A DNA stretch of 50,530 bases, from IMG/VR virus record IMGVR_UViG_3300035661_000089, positions 1-50,530 of that record; one strand, written 5' to 3'. Source of the stretch: a virus. This document shows, in pieces, positions 27,394 to 49,953 of the stretch. A program made the translations under genes and the position numbers. Below the pieces are notes generated by a model, which saw only the letters and a list, made by a program, of their open reading frames with translations, had not been told where the DNA came from and did no database searches. The first letter of the stretch is position 1, and each line of letters starts with the position of its first letter.

Positions 27394-29397
27394 CTACTCG
27401 GAAGCCTGATATCCAACGTCGCTCAGGATGCGGTATGCGTCAACCTCGTAGCGGTCATAATCGACATTGTCAGGAAACACTTCAGGCAGTTCAAGTAAGG
27501 GCATCGCACCGTCGGACCGTGGCACCTTGTTACCGTTCGACGCATACACCATCTCACCGCCCTGCTCGGTTGCGTAATACCAGCGAATGGACTTGCCGAG
27601 ATACTGGCCGTCTTTTACTGCACCGCCTTTGACTGTTCGTACTGAGACGAACTTGCGAATGTCTTTGCACTCCCGGATCGTTTGCAGTATGGGCACGCCT
27701 TTGGTGAGGAATGCTTCAACAGCTTCTACGCAGATCTGGTTCGTGGGGTTCTTGTGCAAGCGGAGCGCCAGGTTCTTCTTGTCGGCCCACGGGTTAGCAT
27801 AGGCGCCTTTGTTCTTTGTGGTGCCGTCGGGCTTGATCGCGATGTAGTTATTGACGTCCCGACTGTAGATCGCACGGTAAGCCGTCTCTTCTGTCTGGAA
27901 GCCTGTGTCGCGTTCCCACTGAGCAATGATTCCCTCCATTTCCGCGTGGCGCACCTTGGGGCACTTGATCACGATGCCATCGGTGTTTGCGCTGACGACT
28001 TGTATGCCCCGGATCTCCAGGCGCTCGATCAGCATCAGCAAGGACAGCTGGCCCGTCACCGTCACCTGGATCAACAAGTCTGGCGAATAGAGAACGCTGT
28101 ACTTATTGCCGAGTTTTCCGAATGAACCGTTAATCGTAATCTTCAACGAATCGGCGATCACTTTGTTGCCAGCGGCCTTTGCAGCAAGTCGCCTCCCAAC
28201 CAACTGCGCATAGACCCGAAGGAAGTTGGGGCCCAAGTGATGCGGGTAGAGCCCCTGATTAAGAATGATCTGCGGATAGTAGGACGTCACGTCACGGTCG
28301 ACGATCACAGTGTGGTCATCAGCTTCGTGCTTCACGCACTGCTCGGAGCTGTGCAGACCGCCAATCCCCATGCGATAGACCCCCCCTGCGATCTGCAGAT
28401 TGAGCTCTTTCAGCTCAGGGGGCATACCGATGTTCCCGTCCTCGGACACTACGAAGTCAGCATTTCTGACCACATTCAGCGCCCAGTTCATCAGCGGGCT
28501 TTCATACTTTAGGAAGGCCGGGATCTTGTATTTGTAGCGGGTGCCTATGTCGATGACTGGTTTCTGCGCACGCATCCCGTTCAGCTTTGCAACCTCGTCC
28601 GCAATGACAGCCTCTGCAATTTGTGCGTCGGACTTACTGCGGAGGTCCATGCCGTAGTCACTGCTCAGCGTTTCGCGGAGGTCAATCTGTTCTTTGAGGC
28701 ACTGGTACAGAATGGCGGTGTCTGTCAAGTCGTTCACGCAATACCAGCGAACAATCGTAATCTGGTCTTCGCTGAGGAACGTCTCGGGGTGGAACGGTAG
28801 ATCCTGCATCTTGGGGGCGTGCAACCTGCCACCGTAGATTTTCAGGCTTGCTCGTAGTGGTGCAACCTCGATCAGGTCAATGTGATCAACTTGGAGCTTC
28901 CTGACCTTGTATTGCTTCAGCACGTCCGAAGGCCTTGCACCTTCCAGAATGATCTGGTTCGTTGCGTGCTTCAGCAGTGCGCAAGGCTTACCCGCCAGCG
29001 CAAGGGCGGTGATCGGTAAGTCGAAGTTTATACTATTGAAGCCGACGGTCGTGAAGTTCTGCATCACCCACAGCATCTTGGCAACGTCAAACCCCTTGTC
29101 AGGGGTCATCTCAAAATAGATCACCTTGCCTGAAATAACGGAAGTGAACGCGGCTAGGAAATAATTCTGGTAGACCTCAATATCATAGATGAGGCGTTCA
29201 CGGTTAATGCAAGACTGCACCAGCTCGTGATCGGTGAACAGGGGTACAGGGAACACACGTGCCTGTTCCAGCCCCGGCAGGTAGTCCGGACGCTCCCATG
29301 TACGCTCTGGAGGTGTTCGCTTAGGCTTTTCAGCCTTTGGGGGCTTGGCGACTGGCATGTCCTGCCAGAAGAAGCCGATCGAGTCACTGCGGGCCAT
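27394..29397 (-). CDS. DNA polymerase, family B, with proofreading exonuclease
   Basis: 667 residues. Exonuclease motifs: Exo I YDIEVYQ (Asp72, Glu74), Exo II FNSINFD (Asn121, Asp126), Exo III YCVND (Tyr219, Asp223). Polymerase motifs: A DRDVTSYYP (Asp369, Ser372, Tyr373), B KITINGSFGK (Lys419, Asn423, Gly427) and C SANTDGIVI, where Asp473 keeps the metal aspartate but the first Asp of the usual DTD is Asn471. Compact for family B, with no protein-primed TPR insertions that I can see. It replicates the phage genome with the clamp coded just upstream; clamp stop and polymerase start share one base (TAATG). Confidence 0.87.
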   Translation of the reverse strand: MARSDSIGFFWQDMPVAKPPKAEKPKRTPPERTWERPDYLPGLEQARVFPVPLFTDHELVQSCINRERLIYDIEVYQNYFLAAFTSVISGKVIYFEMTPDKGFDVAKMLWVMQNFTTVGFNSINFDLPITALALAGKPCALLKHATNQIILEGARPSDVLKQYKVRKLQVDHIDLIEVAPLRASLKIYGGRLHAPKMQDLPFHPETFLSEDQITIVRWYCVNDLTDTAILYQCLKEQIDLRETLSSDYGMDLRSKSDAQIAEAVIADEVAKLNGMRAQKPVIDIGTRYKYKIPAFLKYESPLMNWALNVVRNADFVVSEDGNIGMPPELKELNLQIAGGVYRMGIGGLHSSEQCVKHEADDHTVIVDRDVTSYYPQIILNQGLYPHHLGPNFLRVYAQLVGRRLAAKAAGNKVIADSLKITINGSFGKLGNKYSVLYSPDLLIQVTVTGQLSLLMLIERLEIRGIQVVSANTDGIVIKCPKVRHAEMEGIIAQWERDTGFQTEETAYRAIYSRDVNNYIAIKPDGTTKNKGAYANPWADKKNLALRLHKNPTNQICVEAVEAFLTKGVPILQTIRECKDIRKFVSVRTVKGGAVKDGQYLGKSIRWYYATEQGGEMVYASNGNKVPRSDGAMPLLELPEVFPDNVDYDRYEVDAYRILSDVGYQASE

Positions 29398-30350
29398 TAT
29401 TTGCGCATCCCGATAATGGCGCCACGCAACCTGTCACCGAAGAACATGCAGGGGCCCGGGTACATGGTCCAGTCTATTTTCGTCACTGGGCCGTCCAGCA
29501 GGCCCAGCATCTCGAAGCTATAGACGCCCTCGTGCTGTAGCTCAGGCACCTCGTAACTTGCCCCCTCCGTGGGGTCTGTGTGGGTGCTGAGCATACCGTC
29601 ACCGAAGAATATGCGGCCCAGCTTGTCCGTGAACGGTTTGACCGTCTGCAGAGCAGTGAACAATCTCGGGTCAATTGGTAGCGGGTTCGATGGTCTGTCC
29701 AACACTTTGGCAAGGTTAGGCCACTCGACGCTATAAAGCTGAGTTCGTATCCAGCGACCGTCACTGTAATGGAACGTGATGCTATTGTCTGTCACTTGCG
29801 CGGAGACAGGAGCCTCGTTGATGCGGAGCATCTCTTTGACGCAGGCACGGGGCACGTTGAGCCGCTTCTGGAAGGTGTGGCCAAGCCAATACTCTGCCAG
29901 AATAATGTTGTTCGTTGCAAACAAGCTCTGACCATCCAACAGAACACCGTTAGACCATGGGCGCGACGCATCGTCACCGATGAACGGAGCCACTGTCTTT
30001 AGTCCGTCGAGCAAGGCCTGGCCGTTAATCCCAACAGGCTCACCCTCGGGTTCAACGTGCGGAGTGTCCCCTTCAATGCAGTCAACAAAGGCCTTAAATG
30101 CACCGGAGCGAATGCTAAGCCTGCCCGCGGGTGTCATGCTCAACTGAACCGTGTCGGTGCAGTTTGCAATGGCGCGAACCAGCGGCTCAGCTTTGGGCTT
30201 GCAACTGATGTCGAAGGGGATGGGGCTGCACAGCGCCAGCGTCCCGTTATACCCTCGCACGCGGCCATCGTTGATCACGAAGTGAGTCAGGGCGGGTAGG
30301 AAGTCTTTCTTGGCGACCGCCCCCATGGCGAATTTGAGTTTGGATAACAT
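29397..30350 (-). CDS. Beta-clamp-like processivity factor
   Basis: 317 residues, slightly shorter than bacterial DnaN (about 366). The repeated clamp pattern is visible: AVAKKDFLPALTHFVINDGRVRGYNGTLAL at the start, then VQLSMTPAGRLSIRSGAFKAFVDC, a second unit with LLDGQSLFATNNIILAEYWLG and QVTDNSITFHYSDGRWIRTQLYSVEWPNL. These fit the duplicated DnaN fold. It would hold the family B polymerase on DNA. The ATG follows the DpdA stop with no gap, which ties DNA modification to replication genes. Confidence 0.7.
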   Translation of the reverse strand: MLSKLKFAMGAVAKKDFLPALTHFVINDGRVRGYNGTLALCSPIPFDISCKPKAEPLVRAIANCTDTVQLSMTPAGRLSIRSGAFKAFVDCIEGDTPHVEPEGEPVGINGQALLDGLKTVAPFIGDDASRPWSNGVLLDGQSLFATNNIILAEYWLGHTFQKRLNVPRACVKEMLRINEAPVSAQVTDNSITFHYSDGRWIRTQLYSVEWPNLAKVLDRPSNPLPIDPRLFTALQTVKPFTDKLGRIFFGDGMLSTHTDPTEGASYEVPELQHEGVYSFEMLGLLDGPVTKIDWTMYPGPCMFFGDRLRGAIIGMRK

Positions 30351-31274
30351 CTAGAAGAGCTCCTGGATTCGGTTCGTAAATTGTTCGTAATTGTTCTGGG
30401 CGTTCATCATCCCGTTAATGACGCCGTATGCCCACAGGTTAAACGCGGCACGTGATTCATAGACAGTTGACAGGCGCTCGTAAGTGAAACCCTCACGCTC
30501 AAGCATCTGCAGAACGAGGTCTTGTTCTATGGATGTCAGCGTGCTGACGTGCTGACCGGCGTCATGCCTAGCGGGTGACTTCTCAGACACCGACAGCGGT
30601 CCCCATTGAGGAGTCACAATGCTACCGAAGGCCGCAGACTGGATCCAGGAAGACGAGTCAACCGAATACCATGGATAACGCTCCATGATTGGCACAGCGG
30701 TAATCCCGAACCCGTGTACCTTGAGGCGGGGGCGTCCGCTACCGTCGGTCAGGTAGCGTTCCCACATACGGTCCAGCCAGATGCAGAGCTGCTTCGTTGA
30801 GCTGCCCACCATACCGCCTAGGGTGATGTATTCATAGTTCTGAACATAATACTCGAGATAGCGCTCGTCCTCACCAGCGTGGAAACACGGTAAGGGCTTC
30901 GCTCCAAGCTGCTCCATGGCCATCTGGTTCTGCCACGTCTTCAGCGGGTCACCAATACCGTCCAGCACAGACGCCATGACCACACCGTCCTCGACGCGCC
31001 AGAGGTCAATGTTCCGCTTGATATATTCGCAGTAAGTGGACAGATCAATATCCACACCCAAGGTGAAAGCAGAGAACGCACCGGAGTCAAGAAACACCTT
31101 TGCATCGTTTACTCGCATGGCGTCCACATAGCGCTGCTTTGAGACATAGTGAAACGACTCGAGGATATGCGGAATCCCGTTGACAATTTGCCGCTCACGT
31201 TCGTTCAGCTCTAGATAACGGTTCTGGCCCTTCATATAGTTATTGCTATAGACCGCAGCCATGAATATGTTCAT
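30351..31274 (-). CDS. dpdA: DpdA-like tRNA-guanine-transglycosylase homologue acting on DNA
   Basis: 307 residues; GAGGA about 8 nt before ATG 31274. TGT-fold signs: FLDSGAFSAF (about 61-70), VMASVLDGIGDP (about 96-107) with the nucleophile-type Asp, ITLGGMVG (about 149-156), KVHGFGITA and WYSVDSSSW (about 185-215). The CxCxxC-His zinc site of tRNA TGT enzymes is absent, as usual for phage DpdA. It swaps guanine in DNA for preQ0 or a derivative. The upstream neighbours folE, queD, queE and gat-queC supply that base, which makes the assignment strong. Confidence 0.88.
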   Translation of the reverse strand: MNIFMAAVYSNNYMKGQNRYLELNERERQIVNGIPHILESFHYVSKQRYVDAMRVNDAKVFLDSGAFSAFTLGVDIDLSTYCEYIKRNIDLWRVEDGVVMASVLDGIGDPLKTWQNQMAMEQLGAKPLPCFHAGEDERYLEYYVQNYEYITLGGMVGSSTKQLCIWLDRMWERYLTDGSGRPRLKVHGFGITAVPIMERYPWYSVDSSSWIQSAAFGSIVTPQWGPLSVSEKSPARHDAGQHVSTLTSIEQDLVLQMLEREGFTYERLSTVYESRAAFNLWAYGVINGMMNAQNNYEQFTNRIQELF

Positions 31275-31304: not shown

Positions 31305-31871
31305 TTATTTTGCAAGTGTTAGAAACTCAGACCGCGTCTGGGGCTCGTCCTTAATAGCCCCGCGGAGAGCTGTGGTCACTGTATGGTGGCCTTGTTGGCA
31401 TATCCCACGCGACTCCATGCACAAGTGACGAGCCTTAATTAAAACGCCCACGCCGAGCGGTTGCAGGTGCTCAACCAGTGCATCCGCAATCTGGTTCGTG
31501 AGTCGCTCCTGCACTTGCAAACGACGTGCGAATGCGTCAGCAAGACGGGCCAACTTGCTCAGGCCGACAATGCGGCCGTTCGGAATGTACGCAATTGAGC
31601 AGGTCCCAAAGATGTCCGCCAAGTGGTGCTCACACTTGGAATAAATTGGGATGTCCTTTACTATGACCATCTGATCATATTTCTCACCACCGTCTTCGAA
31701 CGCCTTCATTATCTTGGCAATGTCAACTCCGTAACCGCTTGTCCAGTGCGCCCAGGCCTTAGCTACACGGGCAGGAGTTTCAGCAAGGCCTTCGCGCTCA
31801 TGGTCTTCCACCAGTGATGTGAGCATTCCCTTGACATGGGCCTGGAGAATATGGTTATGTTCTTCTTTCAT
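31305..31871 (-). CDS. folE: GTP cyclohydrolase I
   Basis: 188 residues. YSKCEHHLADIFG carries the zinc Cys and His pair, GRIVGLSKLARL and FARRLQVQERLTNQIA the active-site shell, and HLCMESRGICQQG the second zinc Cys. Catalyses GTP to 7,8-dihydroneopterin triphosphate, the first step to preQ0. AAGGA precedes the ATG by 6 nt. Length is normal for FolE. Between queD and dpdA in the modification operon. Confidence 0.95.
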   Translation of the reverse strand: MKEEHNHILQAHVKGMLTSLVEDHEREGLAETPARVAKAWAHWTSGYGVDIAKIMKAFEDGGEKYDQMVIVKDIPIYSKCEHHLADIFGTCSIAYIPNGRIVGLSKLARLADAFARRLQVQERLTNQIADALVEHLQPLGVGVLIKARHLCMESRGICQQGHHTVTTALRGAIKDEPQTRSEFLTLAK

Positions 31872-31880
31872 TTTAATTCC

Positions 31881-32339
31881 TTACGCGTAATATGATGCGC
31901 TGCACTTTGCAGTCTCTTCAATGCGAACAGATGTGAGCGACACACCAGTGCCCGCAAGCTGAAACGGCCCAATGACTTGGACAAGGTACTGGGCCATGTT
32001 TTCAGCCGTGGGATTGAATGGGACAAACACAAGAGATTCTTTGAAACAAAACTTCTCGGCGGTCTCGCCTTGTTCCGACATAAGTCGCGAAGATTGCTGC
32101 ATTACAGAGTCGTGCTCCCATGCCAGGAATTTATGGTCCCAGTTATGCTCCACCCACATGCACAGTTTTTCTTTAATGACACCAAAGTCAATTACCCTGC
32201 CAACGGTGTCTAACTGTTGAGCTTCGCAAACAAAGTGAATCCGATAGTTGTGGCCGTGCAGGTGACGGCACTTGTTCTCGTGACCGACTACACGGTGACC
32301 CGTGCTGATGTCGTGATATCGTTCTGCAGTTTGTTTCAT
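31881..32339 (-). CDS. queD: 6-carboxy-tetrahydropterin synthase
   Basis: 152 residues. ENKCRHLHGHNYRIH contains the catalytic Cys and two zinc histidines; another His lies in STGHRV. VIDFGVIKEKL, NWDHKFLA and NPTAENMAQYLV are the other QueD signatures. It converts dihydroneopterin triphosphate to 6-carboxy-tetrahydropterin, step two towards preQ0. Its ATG overlaps the stop of the methyltransferase-like gene (ATGA). Confidence 0.94.
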   Translation of the reverse strand: MKQTAERYHDISTGHRVVGHENKCRHLHGHNYRIHFVCEAQQLDTVGRVIDFGVIKEKLCMWVEHNWDHKFLAWEHDSVMQQSSRLMSEQGETAEKFCFKESLVFVPFNPTAENMAQYLVQVIGPFQLAGTGVSLTSVRIEETAKCSASYYA

Positions 32340-33145
32340 TTTGTGAACCCCTCAAAGACGTATTGATATTCCGTGAAGAATGGGTCTTTACCGAGGTCAT
32401 CAACGTACTCAGCGGGCACTGTCTGGCGGCGCGAAATAATGGGAGTGTGGCCACATGCTTTCATGTGTGCTTCCAGGACTTCAGGAATTGGGTAGTTGCT
32501 GGATTGATTGCTGAGGATTACAAACTCATAACGCTGGCGGGCTTCGTCCAGATATTCCACCACATCTTGAAGAATTCGGCGGGCGCTCGCTACCTTAAAT
32601 TCCGTCACTGCTGTATCCCCTAGAAGCTGGCCAAGTGTGTCCGCCGTGGTCTCGTATTCTTGCGTATAGCTTCCATCTTTCCAGGGCCAGGCAAAATCAC
32701 AATAGATAAACTTTCCAGTGTGGTTTTTCAACGTCTCGAACAAGTTTCCACGAATAGCGCGGTAGCCAGGGAGCTTCGGTTGCTGGCTGATGAACGCCAG
32801 CCATTTATCCACCAGTTCTTTGTCAGCAACACGGCCTGATTCTGGGTTATATCCGTAAGCCTCAATGAGTGCCGCTCCTTTAGCTGCAATCAATGCAGCT
32901 TCGACATCCCCACTCAGCGCGAGCCCGATGTGGTGACTGTAACAGCCTAGGTCATTAGAGATGGGGCGCAATCCGAGTTCATGTGCCACATGATAACTGA
33001 TCGCGTGACTGCCTGCATTAGTTTCAAACAGGGTGTCCCCTTCTTTAGCGCCAAGCCCGACAAGTAATTCGGAAACGAACGGAACAAAGCGACGCTGATT
33101 TCCGAAGTACGGGAACCACAATGGGGAAGGTTTAAGTAAGTGCAT
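32336..33145 (-). CDS. Divergent D12-type methyltransferase-like protein in the deazaguanine operon
   Basis: 269 residues from ATG 33145, which has AAAGGA 6 nt before; the TTG at 33160 lies in the previous gene's end. The domain order follows Dam-type (D12/alpha) N6-adenine methyltransferases. Motif X-like PYFGNQRRFVPF is at 12-23, motif I-like FETNAGSHAIS at 40-50 (SAM-binding loop), an ND pair is at 64-65, and the catalytic position CDFAWPWKDGSYTQEY is at 149-164, followed by VILSNQSS at 209-216. The conserved DPPY is replaced by DFAW, while the YTxEY that follows is kept. So SAM binding looks likely but ordinary adenine methylation is doubtful. It sits between gat-queC and queD with a coupled stop/start, so the substrate may be a deazaguanine or its precursor. 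It may also be a degraded adenine methylase. Confidence 0.6.
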   Translation of the reverse strand: MHLLKPSPLWFPYFGNQRRFVPFVSELLVGLGAKEGDTLFETNAGSHAISYHVAHELGLRPISNDLGCYSHHIGLALSGDVEAALIAAKGAALIEAYGYNPESGRVADKELVDKWLAFISQQPKLPGYRAIRGNLFETLKNHTGKFIYCDFAWPWKDGSYTQEYETTADTLGQLLGDTAVTEFKVASARRILQDVVEYLDEARQRYEFVILSNQSSNYPIPEVLEAHMKACGHTPIISRRQTVPAEYVDDLGKDPFFTEYQYVFEGFTK

Positions 33146-33156
33146 GATGTGTCCTT

Positions 33157-34521
33157 TCAATTGACGTAGTTGATAACTTCTGGAAGATTGTTAATCTCGA
33201 ATGCTTTGCGACGCATGTAGCACGGTCCGCAGGTTCCGCAGTGCAGCTCACCGGCACGGTAGCAGCTCCACGTGAGGTCCATCGGTGCGCCCAATTGGTT
33301 GCCCAGCGCGACAATCTCATGCTTCATAAGGTTGCCAACAGGCATTATCACACGCATCCGCTTTCCATCGCCAACAGCGAAAGGAAGAAGGTCGTTAAAG
33401 CGTGCAATGAACTCAGGTTCGTTGTCAGGGTAGGCGCCAGCTTCTTCAAGGTTGTTACCGAGAACGATAGTGCTGATCCCTCGTGCCTCCGCAAAGGCTG
33501 TGGCTACGCTCAACAGAAGCAGGTTCCGGGCAGGAACCCACTCATGCGCAAACTCGGCACCAGCTTCGCCTCCTGCCACCTTGCTGTCAGGGTCAAGGAG
33601 CGGTGAGTCACCTTTCGAATAGACGTTCAGCGGAAACAATGTCAGCTCAGCGTCCAATGCTTCTGCGACCGCTTGCACCGCCTTGACTTCAGGGCCTTCA
33701 GCGCGGCTACCGTACAGGAAGTGAATCAGGTGGATACCCATGCCCAAGGCTTGCTTCGCATACGCTGCACTGACCACACTGTCCAGGCCACCACTGCAAA
33801 CGACAAGAGCTCGCTCGTCCAGGCCTGGCTTGTATAGCGACTCTGACACAATGTCTTCCGACGCTGTGAAGCGAGCGACGGTGTAAGGGGTCAGCATACG
33901 GGGCGCCCATTGCTTGGGCAGGTAGTCACGGGCACTTGCGAAGAAGTATCCATAAGGCGTGTCGACGTACCAGATCGGACGGTAATTTGCCGCGACGTAC
34001 ATGGTGTCGGTTTGACCTTCAAAGGTGGCCAGAATTGAGAAGCTGCCTTTCAGCTTGCGCACCACTTCGGCAAAGTTCTCCAGCGTAGGCGGTAAGGGGG
34101 CCAGCTGCTCAGCGATCGCTGCGCTGTCAATGGTAGTGGGAAGGCTACCCGTGCGAAGGCCCTTGTCGTTGGCAATGGTCCCGTTATGCACGATCGACCA
34201 CGGTCCGTCGGTGTAGGGTTGCTGATCGGACAGACGCTTCTCCCGTACGAACTCCGTCGTAGGCTCAGCGCGAAGGTTGCCTACGACCACAGCGGACCGG
34301 CAAGGCGTGAACAGGGTAGGGGGCAAGACGCGGAAACCTTCGCTCCTGGAAGTCTCGCGGTAAGACTGGGACTCGGCTTCGCTGCTTGAATTGATCACGT
34401 ACCCACGACCGTCACGTCCACGCTCGTGGCTCTTGGTCCAGATCCCGTCCAGGATCACGTTGACTGCTTCTATCCGGTTGACGTCCAAACGACGCACCAG
34501 TGCTCCAACTATTGAACACAT
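33157..34521 (-). CDS. gat-queC: Glutamine amidotransferase-QueC fusion
   Basis: 454 residues. N-terminal class II (Ntn) amidotransferase: Cys2 (MCSIVGAL), VVGNLRAEPTTE about 78-89 and IVHNGTIAND. C-terminal QueC: the PP-loop SGGLDSVVSA and the Cys cluster C-YRAGELH-C-GT-C-GP-C near residue 425-440 that binds zinc. QueC makes preQ0 from 7-carboxy-7-deazaguanine with ammonia, here delivered from glutamine by the fused domain. Gat-QueC fusions are known from phage 9g-type genomes, whose DNA carries deoxyarchaeosine. GGAG precedes ATG by 6 nt. Confidence 0.92.
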   Translation of the reverse strand: MCSIVGALVRRLDVNRIEAVNVILDGIWTKSHERGRDGRGYVINSSSEAESQSYRETSRSEGFRVLPPTLFTPCRSAVVVGNLRAEPTTEFVREKRLSDQQPYTDGPWSIVHNGTIANDKGLRTGSLPTTIDSAAIAEQLAPLPPTLENFAEVVRKLKGSFSILATFEGQTDTMYVAANYRPIWYVDTPYGYFFASARDYLPKQWAPRMLTPYTVARFTASEDIVSESLYKPGLDERALVVCSGGLDSVVSAAYAKQALGMGIHLIHFLYGSRAEGPEVKAVQAVAEALDAELTLFPLNVYSKGDSPLLDPDSKVAGGEAGAEFAHEWVPARNLLLLSVATAFAEARGISTIVLGNNLEEAGAYPDNEPEFIARFNDLLPFAVGDGKRMRVIMPVGNLMKHEIVALGNQLGAPMDLTWSCYRAGELHCGTCGPCYMRRKAFEINNLPEVINYVN

Positions 34522-34524
34522 ATA

Positions 34525-35265
34525 TCACTCCAATCCGATATATTTGTGGGTCTGCACTTGCAGAATGAAACCGTGATACGTTGCATTCGCCACGCACTCA
34601 TCGACGTTCAGCTTGTTCTGGTGTTCGTTCTTGTCATCACATGGTTGGATGTAGATCATACCCTTGTAAGCCTCAGGAGGTCGAGCCAGGAACGGGTGGG
34701 CAGTGTGGTCAAGCGCACGGGAAGGGAGTCCGTCAGACATCGTGTCGCCGCAGGTCGCGACGTACTTGAAGGCGCACGCAATGGCGCCAATGACGGGATT
34801 GACCTTGCCTGTCTTGGGACTGCACACGACGAACACCGCATCGCGCCGCGTCAAGTCTTTTGAGCACAGTTCAAGGAATGCAATGTTGGGAGGGGACAGC
34901 GTTCCGTTCGTTTCAATCTGAACGAAGAAACCTGCCTTCAGCAGCTTCTCGCAGAGCTGGAAGATGTCCTGACGGAAAGGTTCACCGCCTGTGATGACCA
35001 CGAGCCGCAGCTTCGTTCCCTGCACCCATGTTTCAGCAGCGCGAACAATGCTGTCAACGGGAATGCGTTCGCGGGTCGACGTGTAGTCGGTGTCACACTT
35101 GGGGCATTGAAGATTGCACCCTGCAAGGCGAATGAAGAGTGCAGGGAAACCAGTGAATGGGCCTTCACCTTGGATGGTGCGGAAGACGGAATGCACGTCT
35201 AACGACCCGTCAGCAGGGGTGTCAAGTCCTGGGACTTGTCGTTTTTCAATGGGTTGATTGTTCAT
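34525..35265 (-). CDS. queE: 7-carboxy-7-deazaguanine synthase
   Basis: 246 residues; GGAG 5 nt before ATG 35265. The start SVFRTIQGEGPFTGFPALFIRLAGC leads to the radical-SAM site CNLQCPKC (CxxxCxxC), which binds the 4Fe-4S cluster, and a VITGGEPF loop near 90-97 that binds SAM. Converts 6-carboxy-tetrahydropterin to 7-carboxy-7-deazaguanine. First gene of the modification operon, behind a terminator and a possible ribosome-site-masking leader. Confidence 0.94.
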   Translation of the reverse strand: MNNQPIEKRQVPGLDTPADGSLDVHSVFRTIQGEGPFTGFPALFIRLAGCNLQCPKCDTDYTSTRERIPVDSIVRAAETWVQGTKLRLVVITGGEPFRQDIFQLCEKLLKAGFFVQIETNGTLSPPNIAFLELCSKDLTRRDAVFVVCSPKTGKVNPVIGAIACAFKYVATCGDTMSDGLPSRALDHTAHPFLARPPEAYKGMIYIQPCDDKNEHQNKLNVDECVANATYHGFILQVQTHKYIGLE

Positions 35266-35270
35266 CAAGA

Positions 35271-49296: not shown

Positions 49297-49953
49297 TCAG
49301 AAAGGTTTAGGCGGGGGCACTGGTGCAGGTTCATTCAGTATGTTGTCCCGAACAGTTTGCGCCCTTGTGAGTTCTGCTTTCAACTGTTCTTCAGCCGCCT
49401 TTATGCTTGCATTAAAGGAAGCACGAGCAGAGCCCACGCAAGCAGCATAATCATCACGCGCGTCGGCGTGCCTTCGTTTGCGGCCCCTGCACTGTTCCAC
49501 ATATTTGGAATAGAGCTGTGCGTATTCCCGCCGAGCATTTTCGCGTAGTTCCTGCAACATACGCTCTTCAATTTTCTTTTGATTTTGCAATGACACTTCC
49601 ATGGCATGTTGCGTCATTGGGTGTTGCTTGCGATAGCTGGAATAAACATCCTCAACGGACGTGATTGATGTTAGTTCCCCATCCTTGCGGAACTGCGCAC
49701 CAACATGCCATTCCAGGTCTGAACGAATAATGTCCGGGTAACGTGTACATAGTTTGTCCAGCTCCGCAACGTATGCAGGATCCGCGAGCAATTGTTTATT
49801 TAGACGGTCATGTTCTGCCATATCCTGAATGCTGATTACAGAGGCAGGATTGTCCATCCACAATCCTTTACTTACGAGCGGTTCCCCCGCTGGTGTAATG
49901 GGTGTAACGCCCCAAGACGCATAGAATTGATCCTTGTCTTCAATGCAACACAT
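49297..49953 (-). CDS. First early gene: hypothetical helical protein
   Basis: 218 residues; AAAGGAG five nt before ATG 49953. No membrane segment. The middle and end are charged helix (NQKKIEERMLQELRENARREYAQLYSKYV and AAEEQLKAELTRAQTV), ending in PAPVPPPKPF, a proline-rich tip of the kind that binds a partner. No domain recognised. As first gene of the leftward block it may act on the host immediately after entry, which is inference from position. Confidence 0.55.
   Translation of the reverse strand: MCCIEDKDQFYASWGVTPITPAGEPLVSKGLWMDNPASVISIQDMAEHDRLNKQLLADPAYVAELDKLCTRYPDIIRSDLEWHVGAQFRKDGELTSITSVEDVYSSYRKQHPMTQHAMEVSLQNQKKIEERMLQELRENARREYAQLYSKYVEQCRGRKRRHADARDDYAACVGSARASFNASIKAAEEQLKAELTRAQTVRDNILNEPAPVPPPKPF

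Follow-up and report, generated by a model that had tools for sequence, protein, structure and literature searches.

An apparently D12-derived protein with a variant motif IV inside a phage 7-deazaguanine DNA-modification operon

Results

A deazaguanine operon with an additional gene

The DNA analysed here (the window) comprises the 50,530 bases of a single virus record and carries on its minus strand a block of genes in the order queE, gat-queC, X, queD, folE, dpdA, clamp and DNA polymerase (Table 1). The sequence-only reading of this DNA had placed gene X within a complete deazaguanine operon, and this description holds, as all five pathway genes are present with intact catalytic motifs: Gat-QueC keeps the amidotransferase Cys2, the SGGLDS motif and the Zn Cys cluster of QueC, QueE contains CxxxCxxC, and the metal and active-site residues of FolE and QueD are in place. 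Gat-QueC and DpdA of phage 9g place dG+ into DNA (PMC6884629). For gat-queC of the window, the likely products are preQ0 and, through homology to phage 9g, dG+, and the base predicted for the window phage is accordingly dG+ (2'-deoxyarchaeosine). The window phage is Queuovirinae-like. Compared with the 9g-type dG+ operon of the Queuovirinae, the window operon is complete and its pathway genes follow the same order as in Pseudomonas phage PaMx25 and Alteromonas phage R7M; it differs in the presence of X between gat-queC and queD and in a folE that lacks the phosphoribosyltransferase-like domain of its closest relatives. Elsewhere in the window, positions 49297-49953 of the minus strand encode a 218-aa protein that has no PHROG and whose only Pfam match, to MbnB_TglH_ChrH, is weak (E 0.004) and does not pass the cut-off.

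Gene X starts with an ATG at 33145 and ends with a stop codon at 32338-32336, as previously assigned, and the plus-strand frame across it is interrupted by stops. A Shine-Dalgarno-like AAAGGA is located a few bases upstream of the ATG. The stop of X overlaps the start of queD (32339) by 4 nt in the sequence ATGA, in agreement with the earlier description, whereas the distance to the end of gat-queC (33157), previously given as 12 nt, is 11 nt by our count. The three sequence elements on which the earlier description of the protein was based, namely FETNAGS, DFAW and a subsequent YTxEY, are all found in the translation, the first two at the residues given for them.

Table 1. Genes of the operon block (window positions) and sequence motifs of the X protein (residue numbers)
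Feature	Position	Strand	Basis or sequence
queE, 7-carboxy-7-deazaguanine synthase, radical SAM	34525..35268	(-)	Pfam, PHROGs, catalytic residues
gat-queC, class II amidotransferase-QueC fusion	33157..34521	(-)	Pfam QueC 9e-53 and GATase_7; phrog_10428 5e-200
gene X, orphan D12-derived (by sequence) protein with predicted class I methyltransferase fold	32336..33145	(-)	269 aa
queD, 6-carboxytetrahydropterin synthase	31881..32339	(-)	Pfam, PHROGs, catalytic residues
folE, GTP cyclohydrolase I, without N-terminal phosphoribosyltransferase-like domain	31305..31871	(-)	
dpdA, DNA-guanine transglycosylase	30351..31274	(-)	phrog_887, 5.6e-94; both Asp motifs
DNA polymerase processivity factor (clamp)	29397..30350	(-)	PHROGs; downstream, same strand block
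DNA polymerase	27394..29397	(-)	PHROGs; downstream, same strand block
X, motif X	residues 11-19		FPYFGNQRR
X, motif I-like	residues 40-47		FETNAGSH (FETNAGS, 40-46)
X, motif II	residues 63-65		SND
X, motif IV variant	residues 150-155		DFAWPW (DFAW, 150-153)
X, conserved Y...Y	residues 160-164		YTQEY, after the motif IV variant
X, LSN	residues 211-213		LSN

Relationship of X to D12 methyltransferases

Searches with X gave no significant match in Pfam, NCBIfam, PHROGs or PDB sequences, no tblastn match in 50,697 phages (E ≤ 1) or 72,556 plasmids (E ≤ 10), and no homologue among GTDB genome contigs. In IMG/VR the only homologue is on a second contig, which shares 16,328 identical bases with the window and thus adds no independent variation. 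Apart from this contig, searches of IMG/VR DNA for the patterns YCDFAWP, FETNAGxxA and FPYFGN[QK]R gave only chance matches or an ordinary methylase with DPPY. The best match in the phage collection (E 6) is an M.FokI-like methylase aligned to residues 12-77 of X, and weak matches to Type II methylases of PADLOC cover the same stretch. The Pfam model of the MethyltransfD12 family (PF02086) gives no match to X at E ≤ 1, compared with 4e-23 to 2e-39 for three D12 reference proteins.

A further comparison was made with a D12 profile built from M.FokI-like proteins of phages, IMG/VR and genomes, chosen to contain DPP[YF] and reduced to 114. X matches this profile with 19.8 bits (hmmsearch, single-sequence E 2.1e-8) over residues 11-80 only, compared to 2.3 bits for the best of 1000 shuffled versions of X, and it ranks first among 7778 ORFs of related phage loci, the next-best ORF reaching 6.4 bits. 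HHalign aligns the same residues 11-80 to D12 with P 6e-7 and a probability of 92%, whereas the best of 60 shuffles reached 10% and other proteins of the window at most 5.5%. The N-terminal part of X, which corresponds to the SAM-binding part of D12 enzymes with motifs X, I and II, therefore has significant homology to them, and the D12-like reading proposed earlier exceeds chance for the N-terminal third of the protein.

The C-terminal half of X alone has no significant match to the D12 profile, and its alignment depends on the N-terminal anchor and on a pattern defined post hoc. With this anchor, three MAFFT modes all place DFAWPW on the DPPY of all 60 references (D-FAW-P-W against D-P(--)P-Y), followed by the conserved Y...Y, and the domain order and the spacing Y-x-D...P-aromatic...Y...Y after strand 4 are those of the PF02086 methylases. 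The probability that the motif pattern arises by chance in a shuffled C-terminal part, computed post hoc, is 3e-4 to 2e-5. Identity between X and its D12 relatives is 13-21%. Judged by its sequence, X is a descendant of the D12 (alpha-class, M.FokI-like) amino-methyltransferases, which include adenine-N6 methylases; it is not filed as a D12 member, as the Pfam model gives no match and DPPY is replaced.

Changes at the cofactor side and the target side

An alignment with 61 relatives shows that X keeps Y13, G15, G45, N64, D65, Y148, D150, P154, Y160, Y164, S212 and E259, and that it carries the changes K17Q, D41E, F43N, P151F, Y155W and N163E in addition to a His at the loop position of G47 (G47H). 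DPPY is unbroken in 61 of the 61 relatives, partly by construction, as these were selected for DPP[YF]. The motif had been described as lost in X, and it is indeed altered, but a plain loss is not the best description: two residues are inserted after the Asp, one Pro is replaced and the Tyr is changed to Trp, with the Asp, one Pro and an aromatic residue kept. The stretch between motifs II and IV, which corresponds to the target-recognition region, measures about 85 residues in X and at least 143 in 93 relatives, that is, about half the length. Since the SAM loop, motif IV and the recognition region all differ from those of the relatives, X is altered on its cofactor side as well as on its target side, and the changes in the SAM loop (K17Q, D41E, F43N, G47H) make its use of the cofactor uncertain.

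Predicted fold

Prediction of X by AlphaFold2 from the single sequence gave a pLDDT of 40, and the Foldseek search with that model was uninformative. When the D12 alignment was supplied, the pLDDT was 77.3 and the pTM 0.79. In this model the strands follow the class I order, motif IV lies where strand 144-150 ends, and confidence is low only for residues 1-10, 154-166 and 174-176. Foldseek matched the latter model to class I methyltransferases of many substrates (1.8e-7) and, among viral models, to several adenine DNA methylases. X is thus predicted to have a class I SAM-dependent methyltransferase fold, and the structure without a SAM pocket that would have spoken against the earlier proposal did not appear. 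Because the model was guided by the D12 alignment, it indicates compatibility with the fold and is not independent proof of it.

The gat-queC/queD junction in related operons

X is absent from all 79 other gat-QueC loci and from 35 related records, and the cultured Queuovirinae PaMx25 and R7M also lack it, which indicates that the pathway does not need X. PF02086 has no match in 36 related records, and the N6_N4 and Dam methylase families have none in 22 records that include the window phage. A queD match directly adjoins gat-queC in 46 of the 79 loci. The nearest relative, L004, whose Gat-QueC is 94% identical, likewise has gat-queC followed by queD without X. Three other loci hold genes unrelated to X at this junction: a 256-aa orphan in L018 (L018:1247-2014), an HNH-like gene with a weak Pfam match in L026 and a 142-aa gene in L050. 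X is accordingly an accessory gene specific to its lineage that occupies an insertion slot, and given its absence from the sister phage and the unrelated inserts received by the junction, its position in the operon is weak evidence on its function.

GC3 is low across X, queD and folE, and the queD of the window is unlike that of L004, which raised the possibility that the three genes form a foreign cassette. This was rejected for queD: the window QueD resembles most other close relatives (75-78%) as closely as its Gat-QueC does, and it follows that L004 carries the odd queD.

The related operons also vary around X's neighbours. Many encode a FolE with an N-terminal domain that is unnamed by Pfam and contains the phosphoribosyltransferase-like motif FIDDLIDSGST (L004:2854-3753, and also L005-L010, L012, L013, L018, L019, L023-L025, L031, L040, L042, L044, L045, L055, L056, L074, L075 and L081); the FolE of the window is plain. 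One idea is that this domain feeds GTP into the pathway by purine salvage. That X substitutes for it is an anecdotal suggestion drawn from one case. In PaMx25, gp38 (L287:9801-10175), annotated as hypothetical, is apparently a wrong frame over the phosphoribosyltransferase-like part of the folE region. Between queD and folE, L029 contains a gene with a Pfam match to nucleoside 2-deoxyribosyltransferases (L029:7189-7596), and similar ORFs were recognized by eye in L027, L030, L032-L037 and L068; these genes are possibly another route to modified deoxynucleotides. Between folE and dpdA, a 291-aa family with no Pfam or PADLOC match occurs in L029 (8197-9069), L033-L035 and L037. At L074:6533-10860, gat-queC is flanked by genes for a radical-SAM-like protein, a Methyltransf_24 protein and a family 2 glycosyltransferase; dpdA, queD, queE and folE are nearby, and this is a candidate cluster for a hypermodified deazaguanine. 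At L081:4129-6784, gat-queC is followed by methyltransferase, GFO/IDH/MocA oxidoreductase-like and glycosyltransferase-like genes, and then by queD.

Discussion

The sequence-only reading had proposed that X is a re-purposed methyltransferase. This proposal is supported by the descent of X from D12 enzymes, by the change in motif IV and by the complete deazaguanine operon around the gene, but the association with the operon is weaker than was assumed. These results lead us to suggest, tentatively and at somewhat less than even chances, that X carries out a SAM-dependent transfer to an exocyclic amine held in an enlarged pocket, most likely that of the deazaguanine made by the neighbouring operon. 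X would bind SAM, or a SAM derivative, in its altered loop and pass a group on to this amine, whose pocket would be reshaped as well as enlarged and would be held by D150 and W155. As the most likely target, the 7-deazaguanine of the operon would be modified either in DNA, at the amidine of dG+, or as the free base prior to its insertion by DpdA, and the product would be dG+ in a +14 Da (or other) form. The deazaguanine is favoured as a target because X lies within the pathway operon, has a short recognition region and does not fit the adenine motif; a short recognition region would suit a site that DpdA has already chosen. The stronger claim that X is the first D12-derived enzyme to alkylate a 7-deazaguanine in DNA, for example at the amidine of dG+, and so produces a base not yet described, is one that we regard as possible though on balance doubtful.

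It is somewhat less probable still that X is an orphan DNA amino-methyltransferase that, despite its variant motif IV, acts on ordinary adenine N6 (or cytosine N4) and is a mobile passenger sharing the transcription of the operon. Such an activity would be in keeping with the D12 ancestry and with the Asp, Pro and aromatic residue that remain in motif IV, and the unrelated inserts at the gat-queC/queD junction fit a passenger gene. Pantoea phage MED16 has an adenine methylase alongside DpdA (PMC8306585), and the D12-like alpha class also has N4-cytosine enzymes, as described in PMC8616854 and, for M.CbeI, in PMC3425538. However, X lacks N163 and K17, its motif IV has two extra residues and another residue in place of the first Pro of DPPY, and its recognition region has half the usual length. 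The motif matters for activity, to judge from the beta-class enzymes M.EcoGIX and M.BceJIII, for which a change of DPPY to APPA was used to obtain catalytically defective variants (PMC7736820). We consider it unlikely that X is a catalytically dead relative of D12 enzymes that binds DNA, serves as a scaffold for the pathway enzymes or is slowly decaying, even though changes in both the SAM loop (K17Q, F43N, G47H) and motif IV are reminiscent of a pseudo-enzyme and the family can do without X. The gene has an intact frame with a Shine-Dalgarno-like site and the ATGA overlap, and the determinants of the fold survive at 13-21% identity, which points to long-term selection rather than recent decay. 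N64-D65, G45 and D150 are also kept. Because frame and fold survive at this level of identity, the degenerated adenine methylase named earlier as the alternative looks unlikely.

Least probable of these possibilities, and improbable in our estimation, is that X uses its methyltransferase fold on a target other than phage DNA, such as a host nucleic acid, a protein or a small molecule, for example to block a host restriction enzyme. Action on the host is common among the orphan accessory genes of phage insertion slots, and X is a gene of this type; the variety of substrates among the top Foldseek matches is also compatible with such a role. The specific ancestry in the D12 family points instead to nucleic acid, and X is embedded in a modification operon.

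If X is a tailoring enzyme of the deazaguanine pathway, as we tentatively suggest, it would resemble in this respect the dPreQ1 methyltransferase DpdM, reportedly described in other phages by Cui and colleagues in 2023, in that both would add a methyl group within a deazaguanine DNA pathway. The fold of DpdM is said to be new to nucleic-acid methylases and would thus differ from that of X, a D12 derivative by sequence. In the deazaguanine regions of two Cellulophaga phages, phi38:2 and phiST, which may or may not carry DpdM, no ORF matches X. CmoX of Synechococcus phage S-B43, a carboxymethylating cytosine-C5 enzyme (PMC12783734), is a precedent in that its phage DNA methylase fold has an altered cofactor or active site and makes a new base. 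CmoX differs from X in acting on C5 of cytosine, in belonging to the HhaI-like fold family and in being paired with CmoA; no gene resembling CmoA was noticed next to X.

If X methylates only adenine, it would represent an unusual variant of motif IV and would revise how strictly this motif should be used in calling such enzymes active. If the proposed function is correct, X would be a natural case of a DPPY enzyme re-aimed at another amine through a lengthened motif IV and a shortened recognition domain, and action on the deazaguanine would extend the pathway that phages use against restriction by one tailoring step and a new base.
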